From Sutcliffiella horikoshii (GTDB lineage Bacteria; Bacillota; Bacilli; Bacillales; Bacillaceae_I): a stretch of DNA of 64,000 nt. The position numbers and the translations under genes are program-made. Below the pieces are notes generated by a model that saw only the letters and a program-made list of their open reading frames with translations, made no database searches and was not told where the DNA came from. Location: positions 1,964,001 to 2,028,000 of the forward strand of contig NZ_CP082918.1 of assembly GCF_019931755.1 (NCBI RefSeq), written 5' to 3'. Of the stretch, positions 51,801 to 64,000 are shown one piece after another. The first letter of the stretch is position 1. Every line of letters begins with the position of its first letter.

Positions 51801-51897
51801 TGGCGGGACTGCGTGGGAATCGAACCCACCTGAGACGGCACGCGCCTCACAAGCGGTTTTGAAGACCGAGACAAGCACCAGCATTGCAATCAGCCCC
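51801..51897 (-). tRNA. selC: tRNA-Sec (anticodon UCA)
   Basis: On the minus strand a 97-base tRNA ends in an encoded CCA. The acceptor GGGGCTG pairs with CAGTCCC, the T arm is GTGGG-TTCGATT-CCCAC, and the anticodon arm CGGT-CTTCAAA-ACCG gives anticodon TCA (plus 51860-51862). A long variable arm (TGAG...CTCA) and an extended acceptor/D arm are typical of selenocysteine tRNA. It reads UGA as selenocysteine with SelB. The gene is 8.8 kb from selB. Confidence 0.95.
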
Positions 51898-60515: not shown

Positions 60516-60743
60516 ATGGGTTGTTTTATTAACAAAGTTGTAATAAAGAATGTAAATGGTGGGGTCGTAAACTTCGGAAATATATTTAAAGCTTGTCCGA
60601 TAGCCGAGGAAACTGGTGTTACAGGCTCTGGTTCCGGAAATCTTGGACAATGTATCAAAACATTTACAAAGATTAGTGTGGTGAATGTTTGCGGTAAGAA
60701 AAAAGTAGAAATAAATGACGAAATAGGTGAGGGGTTTGAGTAG
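60516..60743 (+). CDS. GerPA/GerPF-family spore germination protein
   Basis: A 75-residue protein. The pattern VVIKNVNGGVVNFGNIFKACPIAEE ... GSGSGNLGQCI is that of the GerPA/GerPF family, small proteins that help germinants cross the spore coat. Unlike the classical members it carries four Cys. ATG at 60516 with AAAGGGGTGG. The usual gerPABCDEF operon is not here, so this is a solitary paralogue. Its end overlaps selB by eight bases. Confidence 0.85.
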   Translation: MGCFINKVVIKNVNGGVVNFGNIFKACPIAEETGVTGSGSGNLGQCIKTFTKISVVNVCGKKKVEINDEIGEGFE

Positions 60744-62616
60744 TAAACACTATACAATCGGAATGGCAGGGCATATCGATCACGGCAAAACCACGTTGAC
60801 AAAAGCGTTGACTGGTGTGGATACGGATCGACTCAAAGAAGAGAAGGAGAGAAAAATATCCATTGAACTCGGGTATGCGCCGTTAAAAATGGATGACGGT
60901 TCTCTTTTATCCATTATAGATGTGCCTGGCCATGAACGGTTCATTCGTCAGATGATTGCAGGGGTTTCAGGAATCGACCTGGTCATTTTGGTCGTCGCTG
61001 CAGATGAAGGGGTAATGCCACAGACGAAAGAACATCTGGAAATAGTAAAGTTTCTCCAAATCCAGAAAGGAATCATTGCCATTACGAAAAAAGATAAGGT
61101 GGAAGATGATTTATTGGATTTGGTGAAAGAGGAAATAATGGACGAGTTAGAGGATTCCGTATTTCATCATGCACCAGTTGTCTTCTTGGACAGCACTAAA
61201 AATATTGGCATAGATGATTTAAAGGAAACGCTACTTGGACAATTAGAGGACATACAACATAAGCAAGAATCCGGAGATTTCCGTTTGCCGATTGATCAGG
61301 TATTTACCATTAAAGGACAAGGGACGGTTGTCCGGGGAACGATTATGGAGGGGATGGTTCATACTGATGATGAGCTTCAAATTCTTCCTGCTGGAATAAC
61401 GGTAAAAGCAAGGCAGCTGCAAGTACATAATAAAATGGTTAATAATGCAAAGGCTGGTCAGCGGGTTGCCGTTAATCTTCCCAATATTAGTGCGGAGGAT
61501 ATCAACAGAGGGGATGTACTCGTTCTTTCCGAGACATATGAAACAACAGATACCATTGATGTCAGTTTAAAATTCATTAAGAAGCTGCAATATCCGATTA
61601 AGCAAAGAAGTGTATTGAAAGTACATATCGGTACAGCCGAAGTGATGGGGAAAATCATCTTTTTTGATCGAAATGAATATCAAGATTCAAATGAAGAAGT
61701 CTTGTGTCAGCTGCGTTTAGAGGAACAAATAACAGCAAAAAGAGGAGACAAGTTCATCGTCAGAAGACCTACTCCAGTCGAAACAGTGGGCGGTGGCTGG
61801 GTGATTCAAGCAAAAGGCTCCAAATATAAGTTTGGAGAAAACACAATTCGAACACTACAAAAAGTGAAGGAAGGGAGTCCAGAAGAAAGGGTCACTCAAG
61901 CTTTCAGTAAAAATAAGCTGTTAGAATCTAAAGATTTACAGGAAGAAACAGGATTGACCAAAATGGAGCTGGATTCTTTACTGGAAGTCGGGAAACTGAT
62001 TAAGATCATGGATAAATTCTATACAGGTTCAGAAAATGTAAAAGCCACTTTGCATCAAGTAACCAGCTACATCCATGCTTTCCATGAGGCCAATCCATTA
62101 AAAGCAGGAGTGGCAAAGGCTGAAATACTTTCAAACTTTTCAAATTCGGTACCTAAGAATTTAGTAGAACATGTCATTCAATCACTACAAGACGACGGAA
62201 AAATAATGCGAGATGAAAGTTTATTATATGATGCCAGCTTTGAACCGCATTATCCTGTTTCTTGGAAAAAAAGAATGGAACAGGTTGTGTCTGGTATTGA
62301 GGGGGACGGTCTTACTCCTAAACCTTTTGAGCAGTATGGACGAGAGACGGGACTTCCTGAAAAAGAACTGCGTGATCTTCAGCATTATTTAATCAGGCAG
62401 GAAAAAGTATACGTGTTGGATGATAAGCATTTAGTCAGTGTAAAAATCATAGAAAGTTCTGTCTCTAAACTAAAGAGGAAGTATTCACAGGAATTAGAGC
62501 TGAGCGGAGTAAAAGAGGAACTCGGATTATCCAGAAAGTATTTGATCCCTTATATGGAATTGCTAGATGCCTTACAGATTACGAAAAGAGAAGATTCTGT
62601 TCGGTATTGGAGATAA
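60736..62616 (+). CDS. selB: Selenocysteine-specific elongation factor SelB
   Basis: A 626-residue translational GTPase. G domain: GHIDHGKTTL (G1), DVPGHE (G3), TKKDK (G4). Domains II and III follow (TIKGQGTVVRGTI, RRPTPVETVGGG). The C-terminal third holds winged-helix repeats that read the SECIS hairpin. It brings Sec-tRNA to UGA codons. The TTG at 60736 follows AGGTG with six bases. An in-frame GTG at 60727 is possible but has no better site. It overlaps the gerP-like gene by eight bases. selA does not accompany it. Confidence 0.95.
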   Translation: MSSKHYTIGMAGHIDHGKTTLTKALTGVDTDRLKEEKERKISIELGYAPLKMDDGSLLSIIDVPGHERFIRQMIAGVSGIDLVILVVAADEGVMPQTKEHLEIVKFLQIQKGIIAITKKDKVEDDLLDLVKEEIMDELEDSVFHHAPVVFLDSTKNIGIDDLKETLLGQLEDIQHKQESGDFRLPIDQVFTIKGQGTVVRGTIMEGMVHTDDELQILPAGITVKARQLQVHNKMVNNAKAGQRVAVNLPNISAEDINRGDVLVLSETYETTDTIDVSLKFIKKLQYPIKQRSVLKVHIGTAEVMGKIIFFDRNEYQDSNEEVLCQLRLEEQITAKRGDKFIVRRPTPVETVGGGWVIQAKGSKYKFGENTIRTLQKVKEGSPEERVTQAFSKNKLLESKDLQEETGLTKMELDSLLEVGKLIKIMDKFYTGSENVKATLHQVTSYIHAFHEANPLKAGVAKAEILSNFSNSVPKNLVEHVIQSLQDDGKIMRDESLLYDASFEPHYPVSWKKRMEQVVSGIEGDGLTPKPFEQYGRETGLPEKELRDLQHYLIRQEKVYVLDDKHLVSVKIIESSVSKLKRKYSQELELSGVKEELGLSRKYLIPYMELLDALQITKREDSVRYWR

Positions 62617-62618
62617 TG

Positions 62619-62658
62619 AAAACGGTGCTACTGAAAGTAATCAGTTGGCACCGTTTTT
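62619..62658. terminator. Bidirectional terminator between selB and selD
   Basis: Stem GAAAACGGTGC / GCACCGTTTTT enclosing a second small stem. It covers the selD stop codon. Confidence 0.82.
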
Positions 62659-63705
62659 GCTTACATAAATGCATTTTTCTCTTTTTTCTGTGACAGATCC
62701 AATGACAGCAGCATGCACATTTCTTTCTTTTAGCTTGCTTACATACTGATACGCTTCCGTTTTAGGCATGCTGACTAGCATGCCTCCAGATGTGATAGCG
62801 TCACACAACACCAGCTGCTCATGAAAAGAGATGGAATCAGGGTAATAAACCTCATTCTCTAACCATTGATGGTTGGACTTAGATCCACCAGGCACTACGC
62901 CTGCTTCTGCCAACTCATATGTTCCCGATAAAACAGGAACTTTCTTCAGGTCGATATGTAAGCTTACGCCGCTTCCACGTGCGATTTCACTTGCATGTCC
63001 GAGCAGTCCAAAACCAGTAACGTCTGTAACGGCATTCGGATTGTATTCTTTCAATGTTTCAGCTGCATGTTTGTTTAAGGAAGCCATTGTCTGCGTTACG
63101 AGAGTAATTTGTTCATCTGTAGCTTTTCCTCGTTTTATGGCGGTAGTGATGATCCCTACCCCAATAGGCTTTGTTAATACAAGTGCATCCCCAGTGCGAG
63201 CACCAATATTTTTCCATATATGATTTGGATGGGCAAACCCTGTAACAGATAAGCCGAATTTAGGTTCCTGGTCATCAATGGAATGTCCACCGACAATGAC
63301 TGCTCCTGCTTCCTTCACTTTATCCAACGCCCCTGAAAGGATAGAGTGGAGAATTTCGGGTCCCAATTTCTTTATTGGATATCCGACAATATTTAGTGCT
63401 GTTTTTGGGGTGCCACCCATTGCATAAACGTCACTCAATGCATTCGCAGCAGCTATTTGTCCAAACATGTAAGGGTCATCCACAACTGGTGTAAAATAAT
63501 CGAGCGTCTGGATCATCGCAATGTCATCAGTGATTTTATATACTCCGGCATCATCAGAAGTGCTAAAGCCTACTAACAAATTAGGATCGTGGTTATTCGC
63601 AGGTAAATCACGCAAAACTTGCGCGAGGTCGCTAGGACCAAGTTTGCAGCCTCAACCAGCTTTCGTAGATAGTGATGTTAAACGAATTTTTTCGTGTTCA
63701 CTCAT
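62641..63705 (-). CDS. selD: Selenide, water dikinase SelD, itself a selenoprotein (in-frame UGA = Sec18)
   Basis: A 354-residue SelD when one UGA (plus 63652-63654) is read as Sec. The N-terminus MSEHEKIRLTSLSTKAG-Sec-GCKLGPSDL follows the SelD pattern (C/U)-G-C-K, with Sec at the catalytic position held by Cys17 in E. coli SelD. GFSTSDDAGVYK, the Asp metal residues and GGHSIDD also fit. It makes selenophosphate from selenide and ATP. An AGGAGGTG site precedes the ATG at 63705. Standard gene calling would cut it to an internal TTG at 63615 and lose the active site. A candidate SECIS hairpin follows the UGA. Confidence 0.95.
63620..63654 (-). promoter_or_regulatory. Candidate bacterial SECIS element in selD
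   Basis: On the minus strand, AAACTTG (a few bases after UGA) pairs with CAAGTTT. Inside, GTC-CTAGC-GAC forms an upper stem with a G in the loop. Position directly 3' of UGA is as expected for bacterial SECIS. The fold was read by eye, not computed. Confidence 0.6.
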
Positions 63706-63776: not shown

Positions 63777-63805
63777 TTGCGAAAAGGTAATAGATGTACT
63801 ATGAT
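63777..63805 (+). promoter_or_regulatory. Candidate promoter of the SelW-like gene
   Basis: TTGCGA and TATGAT spaced 17 bases apart, about 65 bases before the start codon. Confidence 0.5.
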
Positions 63806-63870
63806 AATATTAATGACTGGGAAGGAATATCTTGGTCATCGTAGTAAAAACTTGCATAGGAGGAAAACTC

Positions 63871-64000
63871 ATGAGCAATTTCAAAGTATCTATCGAATTT
63901 TGCATGCAGTGAAACTACGCGCCAAAAGCCGCGAGTTTCGCGGAATTACTATTCAGCCACTTCCGAACGGATATCTCCTCTATGGAGCTGATCCCAAGCT
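63871..64000 (+). CDS. SelW/Rdx-family selenoprotein with CxxU motif (3' end outside window)
   Basis: ATG at 63871 behind AGGAGG (63860-63865). Reading the UGA at 63910-63912 as Sec gives MSNFKVSIEFCMQ-Sec-NYAPKAASFAELLF..., the thioredoxin-like Rdx pattern: beta strand, CxxU, N-Y-x-P-x-A, helix, then MELIPS where family members continue with a GG-V-F segment. 43 codons are in the window. SelW-type proteins are small redox proteins. The UGA is followed by a hairpin. A conventional caller would see only a 13-residue ORF. Confidence 0.88.
63929..63943 (+). promoter_or_regulatory. Candidate bacterial SECIS hairpin in the SelW-like gene
   Basis: CCGCGA-GTT-TCGCGG, a perfect 6-bp GC-rich stem with a G-bearing loop, begins 16 bases after the UGA, the distance range of bacterial SECIS elements. 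Confidence 0.7.

Follow-up and report, generated by a model that had tools for sequence, protein, structure and literature searches.

The window analyzed here, a 64,000-nucleotide stretch of Sutcliffiella horikoshii DNA (contig positions 1964001-2028000), ends inside a gene predicted to encode a selenocysteine (Sec)-containing protein of the SelW-like, Rdx family. Beyond the window edge the gene was read in the organism's own genome, on stretch L003 (2022001-2036000), where a position equals the window position minus 58000. The locus comprises the following features.

51805..51897, minus strand: tRNA-Sec (selC), anticodon UCA, from a tRNA search
60727..62616, plus strand: selB, Sec-specific elongation factor, from the open reading frame (ORF) and profile matches
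62641..63705, minus strand: selD, selenide water dikinase with an in-frame UGA, divergent from selW with 165 nt between them, from profile matches
63607..63627, minus strand: predicted SECIS hairpin region of selD, apical GCAAGUUUUGC, its loop 11 nt farther from the UGA than that of selW
63652..63654, minus strand: UGA (Sec) codon of selD, from the sequence
63777..63805, plus strand: promoter-like TTGCGA-17-TATGAT, 9/12 consensus matches, not above chance
63858..63863, plus strand: Shine-Dalgarno AGGAGG, 7 nt upstream of the ATG, from the sequence
63871..64000, plus strand: predicted selW-like (Rdx family) selenoprotein gene, 79 aa; first 43 codons and one base in the window, gene end at 64110 beyond the edge
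63910..63912, plus strand: in-frame UGA read as Sec, codon 14, CxxU motif; 61 of the 62 related loci have UGA and one has Cys
63929..63943, plus strand: predicted bacterial SECIS hairpin with a 6 bp stem and a GUU loop that lies 22 nt downstream of the UGA, from folding, covariation and synonymous constraint

The selW gene sits between selD and selA and near selB, with tRNA-Sec 12 kb off on the other strand; selA, recognized by profile matches, lies downstream and outside the window at L003:6189-7586 (64189-65586). A sequence-only reading of the window had suggested a compact selenium locus in which the user gene stands beside the factor genes, close to and divergent from selD, and the order selB, selD, selW and then selA bears this out. 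Among the 34 Bacilli loci L004-L037, selA follows no more than 1.5 kb downstream in the same orientation in 32, selD is divergent and at most 400 nt from selW in 27, and selB is inside the fetched stretch in 31. Wherever the selD motif was found in loci L003-L037 (31 of 35), selD contains a UGA (31/31). The stretches of the distant loci L038-L065 contain no SelA match. One further locus (L114, genome G117) has a second, divergent SelD-like frame with a UGA and a SECIS-type hairpin.

The selW frame (L003:5871-6110) has 79 codons, a single in-frame UGA at codon 14 and a TAA stop at 64108-64110. The AGGAGG, the ATG at 63871, the 13 sense codons and the UGA that ends them all stand where the sequence-only reading had placed them, and taking the UGA as Sec gives the C-M-Q-U-N-Y-A-P-K-A that it had predicted. 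The full predicted translation is MSNFKVSIEFCMQUNYAPKAASFAELLFSHFRTDISSMELIPSSGGKFEVTVNGETIFSKKETGVFPKAEDIIAQLEGK, with the redox motif C11-x-x-U14 near the N terminus. A GG-x-F segment and a stop had been expected beyond 64000; the core SSGGKFEV is encoded there, and the frame, rather than closing soon after the edge, ends after 79 residues. The gene had been described as invisible to ORF callers, and it is indeed missing from standard-code ORF listings at minimum lengths of 80 aa and 60 aa. The promoter proposed for it fared worse, as the sole sigma-70-like candidate upstream of selW is no better than shuffled sequence (1 found versus a mean of 1.5 in shuffles).

Family membership and selection on the frame

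The predicted protein passes the cut-offs of both Pfam Rdx (PF10262; 81.3 bits, cut-off 22.6) and TIGR02174 (67.9 bits, cut-off 34.2), in line with the Rdx family first suggested for it from the motif. Its best NCBIfam profile is NF041051 (SelTWH_Campy), where 85.6 bits falls below the equivalog cut-off of 88, and the protein is not filed there. A Pfam Rdx search of the whole genome finds one place only, selW, with its one TGA inside. The best relative of solved structure, by sequence, is 2fa8 (E 2.1e-13), with 3dex and 2p0g also matching; 2npb, whose chain is named plainly selenoprotein W, matches at E 0.021 only. The Rdx family has a thioredoxin-like fold, and the chemistry of its CxxU motif is thiol redox. 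By analogy with the family, the 79-residue SelW would act as a small oxidoreductase of the thioredoxin type, with a selenenylsulfide arising between Cys11 and Sec14 in the course of thiol redox exchange.

Scanning species genomes yielded 62 loci with SelW relatives, in which the codon at the Sec site is TGA in 61, TGT in 1 (L036, Cytobacillus eiseniae) and TGG in 0. A plain stop codon never replaced by Cys had been named as the pattern that would speak against selenocysteine, and the homologues instead present 61 UGA codons and one Cys. Judged by the SelW protein, the nearest named relatives belong to Sutcliffiella horikoshii (96% identity), and the wider set, going by record titles, spans Bacillus-type genera, Melghirimyces and Marinithermofilum (Thermoactinomycetaceae), Chloroflexi, Planctomycetota, Latescibacterota, one Desulfuromonadales contig and Campylobacter. 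The SelW on that Desulfuromonadales contig, a 5-kb MAG contig (L040), has 53% identity and is nearer the Bacilli type than the Chloroflexi and Planctomycetota matches (33-48%); it may reflect either transfer or contamination. Both CxxU columns are invariant across 33 aligned SelW proteins (with U displayed as C). Downstream of the UGA, pN/pS is 0.07-0.15 in eight comparisons of the window's selW with L004-L011, and the post-UGA sequence is, on this measure, under purifying selection.

The hairpin downstream of the UGA

The perfect hairpin that had been noticed 16 bases 3' of the UGA was found at 63929-63943, as CCGCGA-GUU-UCGCGG with exactly 16 bases from the UGA to the stem. PMC13188914 describes bacterial SECIS elements (bSECIS) by 1) a loop of 3-9 nt on a stem of 4-16 bp; 2) a G at loop position 1 or 2, commonly with a G or U next; 3) a UGA-to-loop distance of 16-37 nt; and 4) a free energy of at most -7.5 kcal/mol. 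The selW hairpin falls within all four, with a 3 nt loop and a 6 bp stem, a GUU loop, 22 nt from UGA to loop, and -8.0 kcal/mol as a 15-mer or -9.3 once the flanks are included. Three variant 15-mers of selW from relatives reach just -6.0 to -6.5 kcal/mol, and the selD 15-mer core -4.9.

Conservation of the pairing was assessed in 62 UGA sequences, comprising 37 of Bacilli type (L003-L035, L037-L039 and L042, with L003 the window's own) and 25 other or distant ones. All six pairs form in 33 of the Bacilli-type sequences and at least five in all 37; at the distant loci the corresponding counts are 15 and 19 of 25, while 6 of the 25 pair at fewer than five of six positions at the exact hairpin columns. 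The two stem pairs that lie at third codon positions vary without a single break in the Bacilli-type set, one between CG (26) and UA (11) and the other between GC (29), AU (5) and CG (3). Over 30 distinct rows the covariation score is 0.330 versus 0.151 in shuffles, with 0 of 500 shuffles as high (the shuffles do not keep relatedness), and 97.8% of stem cells are paired versus 88.8%. Two of the five covariation measures, the count of doubly changed pairs and that of further pair types, are not above the shuffles. Sliding the partners by -2 columns gives a score of 0.290 with only 63.3% of cells paired. The loop opens with GU in 56 of 56 aligned hairpins (31 from selD and 25 from selW, the latter a selection from the 62 UGA sequences).

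Synonymous change is also depressed at the hairpin. Summed over the eight comparisons, codons 15-25 show 2.0 synonymous changes in 56.0 sites (pS 0.036), against 15.5 in 43.0 upstream of the UGA (0.360) and 149.5 in 280.5 after codon 25 (0.533), a level around the hairpin 15-fold below that of the later codons in counts that take no account of relatedness. The selW hairpin is thus a predicted SECIS element, evidently under RNA-level selection, to which SelB and Sec-tRNA would bind for Sec to be inserted at codon 14.

A competing structure was weighed against it. In the window's species the lowest-energy free-RNA fold is another hairpin that starts within the UGA itself; as a free RNA this long hairpin comes out best in 14 of the 37 Bacilli-type sequences (our species and 13 of the 36 others), the SECIS hairpin in 21, and neither in 2. 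With the first 6 nt omitted, the SECIS hairpin becomes the best fold in 34 of 37. We rejected the UGA-starting hairpin as the SECIS element because its pairing (86.0% of cells, the same as in shuffles) is at shuffle level and its covariation (0.130 versus 0.132) does not rise above it, whereas the shorter hairpin covaries.

The Cys-containing relative in Cytobacillus eiseniae presents the converse case. Its selW hairpin pairs at only 4 of 6 positions and does not fold alone, while its selD retains both UGA and an intact hairpin and its genome carries tRNA-Sec at 54.8 bits. We read this as a selW that probably lost its Sec codon and hairpin together while Sec decoding continued. The frame and its family, the exchange of Sec for Cys, RNA-level selection on the SECIS hairpin and the Sec-decoding genes close at hand all point the same way, and selW is almost certainly a genuine SelW-like selenoprotein gene of the Rdx family with a CxxU motif.

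The interval between selW and selA and other readings of the UGA

Between selW and selA lies a terminator-like hairpin (L003:6107-6138, 64107-64138; z -3.53) with the selW stop inside its 5' arm, and this arm overlaps the stop codon in all eight loci L003-L010. A terminator-like hairpin follows selW in 25 of 35 loci, starting at -11 to +19 relative to the stop codon's first base, and 10 of the 25 overlap the stop. In all eight Fictibacillus loci (L015, L016, L024, L025, L027, L029, L030 and L034), where 45-51 nt separate the selW stop from the selA Shine-Dalgarno, a CCUCC arm located 12-14 nt downstream of that stop pairs with the Shine-Dalgarno (z -1.50 to -4.78); these loci are close relatives and may represent a single event.

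Such arrangements make it possible, as a lead only, that selW translation is coupled to selA. In an extended form of this idea, selW would be a main Sec user in the order and would also report the selenium supply to selA. A ribosome would get to the selW stop codon only after inserting Sec, and there it would mask the terminator arm in the window's group or alter access to the selA ribosome site in Fictibacillus, so that Sec supply would set selA output. We hold this proposal to be improbable. More doubtful still, and very unlikely in our estimate, is that selW serves mainly as a selenium-sensing leader for selA; arrival at its stop, which needs Sec, would then open or close a terminator or the selA ribosome site, and the protein would be of secondary importance. 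The sequestered selA Shine-Dalgarno in 8/8 Fictibacillus loci and the overlapped stop in 8/8 loci L003-L010 speak for such a leader, but the SelW protein is strongly constrained along its whole length, selA is not nearby in 2 of the 34 Bacilli loci L004-L037 and has no match in L038-L065, just 10 of the 25 terminator-like hairpins overlap the stop, and the two clades would use two unlike devices. Terminators beside stop codons are, moreover, common.

Compared with the selenoprotein reading, decoding of the UGA as tryptophan or by general read-through has next to no chance of being correct. It draws on the protein records, in which 44 homologues show Trp at the Sec site in 35 (five of them starting at an inner Met), Cys in 3 (one of them the Cytobacillus eiseniae protein), a start downstream of the site in 6 and Sec in 0. 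At the DNA level, however, TGG occurs in none of the 62 loci against 61 TGA and one TGT; tRNA-Sec, selA, selB and selD lie near selW; and the hairpin is under selection and is broken in the Cys relative. The Trp residues would instead stem from gene calls made with a code in which UGA is Trp, and selW adds a selenoprotein that is absent from ORF lists and mostly displayed with Trp in the protein collection. That the UGA is a real stop, leaving a 13-residue peptide or a pseudogene before an unrelated frame, accords with the absence of selW from standard-code ORFs at both length floors and is nonetheless vanishingly improbable given the purifying selection past the UGA, the UGA kept in 61/62 loci from several phyla and the Cys replacement in other homologues.

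Selenocysteine use in the genome and the order, and known systems

Other Sec users were sought in the same genome. Formate dehydrogenase was rejected in this role: neither molybdopterin oxidoreductase PF00384 (which matches 11 of 14 controls) nor TIGR01591 has a match in this genome, and the absence of a molybdopterin oxidoreductase match would therefore mean that it has no Mo-type formate dehydrogenase. Peroxiredoxin-type users were likewise rejected, as none of 14 AhpC/TSA matches has an inner stop. A SECIS model search (942 candidates, 150 scored) places selW first at 31.0 bits and selD second at 26.6, and the next two matches are weak and lack a sensible UGA frame; this search is no census because the model was built from selW and selD, the window's own copies included.

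Within the family, selW occurs in 14 of 18 genomes, and tRNA-Sec exceeds the Rfam cut-off in exactly those 14. At E 0.001 all 18 return a tRNA-Sec match, and those under the cut-off we take for ordinary tRNAs. Across 397 genomes of the order, Rdx is found in 164 and tRNA-Sec in 179: both in 163, Rdx only in 1, tRNA-Sec only in 16 and neither in 217 (Fisher p 1.8e-91, uncorrected for kinship). The single Rdx-only genome (G048) gave no tRNA-Sec match on a repeat search either. Each Rdx match, among the matches listed, contains exactly one TGA. Five genomes (G066, G086, G148, G353 and G399) each have two tRNA-Sec matches that exceed the search threshold.

Matches resembling the formate dehydrogenase alpha subunit (FDH-alpha) occur in 143 of 179 genomes with tRNA-Sec versus 156 of 218 without (p 0.06), with a model that at E 1e-40 picks up further Mo enzymes as well; of the 299 genomes with a match, 237 have one above its own cut-off. 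Among the best matches listed none has an inner stop; lower-scoring Sec-containing enzymes of this type could exist in other genomes. At E 1e-40, 36 tRNA-Sec genomes are without an FDH-alpha-like match, and 34 of these have selW. In the order, the distribution of Rdx thus matches that of tRNA-Sec much better than does the distribution of formate-dehydrogenase-like genes, which points to a small redox protein as a main correlate of Sec decoding there. It is not the sole reason for Sec decoding, because 16 genomes have tRNA-Sec without Rdx; by the SECIS model 13 of these have a UGA-containing selD, one (G196) has a match that is not selD, and two (G139 and G312) have no match. Two genomes (G025 and G070) combine tRNA-Sec and a UGA-containing selD with neither an Rdx match nor an FDH-alpha-like match at E 1e-40, and have no AhpC/TSA match with an inner stop. 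From the co-occurrence we infer that selW, together with selD itself, is one of the chief reasons why this lineage has kept its Sec machinery. Genomes like the present one, where no molybdopterin oxidoreductase matches, would provide a small Sec economy with named relatives in culture collections, and removal of a single gene could test the function of SelW-like proteins there.

In Zhang et al. 2006 (PMC1794560), FdhA is present in 67 of 75 Sec users, every selenoproteome contains FdhA or SelD, and three selenoproteins of three families are counted for Bacillales; in that scheme, the genome studied here belongs with those that have SelD. SelW-like proteins are counted in 35 organisms in PMC5029168, and PMC1088965 calls their function unclear and probably redox. 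Searches of an open-licence library for SelW in Bacillus, Bacillales or Bacillaceae and for bSECIS and Rdx brought up, judging by titles and abstract openings, no paper on this branch; members of the branch may nevertheless be in the sets counted in PMC1794560 and PMC5029168, and the example record of the reviews (AOH51717.1) may come from a near relative. The selA-selB-selC clusters with neighboring fdhA described for some Proteobacteria (PMC1794560) likewise place a user gene beside the Sec machinery, whereas here the user is selW, not fdhA, and selC is 12 kb away. With the prokaryotic SELENOW-like (SelW-like) selenoproteins of PF10262, as outlined in PMC13188914 and PMC9312934, the present protein shares the profile, the CxxU motif, the SSGG-x-FEV core and a bSECIS after the UGA; it differs from those listed there in its Bacillaceae branch, its selB-selD-selW-selA neighborhood and a genome with no molybdopterin oxidoreductase match. 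SelW is, as far as sequence can tell, an ordinary further member of a known family and a predicted selenium-containing redox protein.
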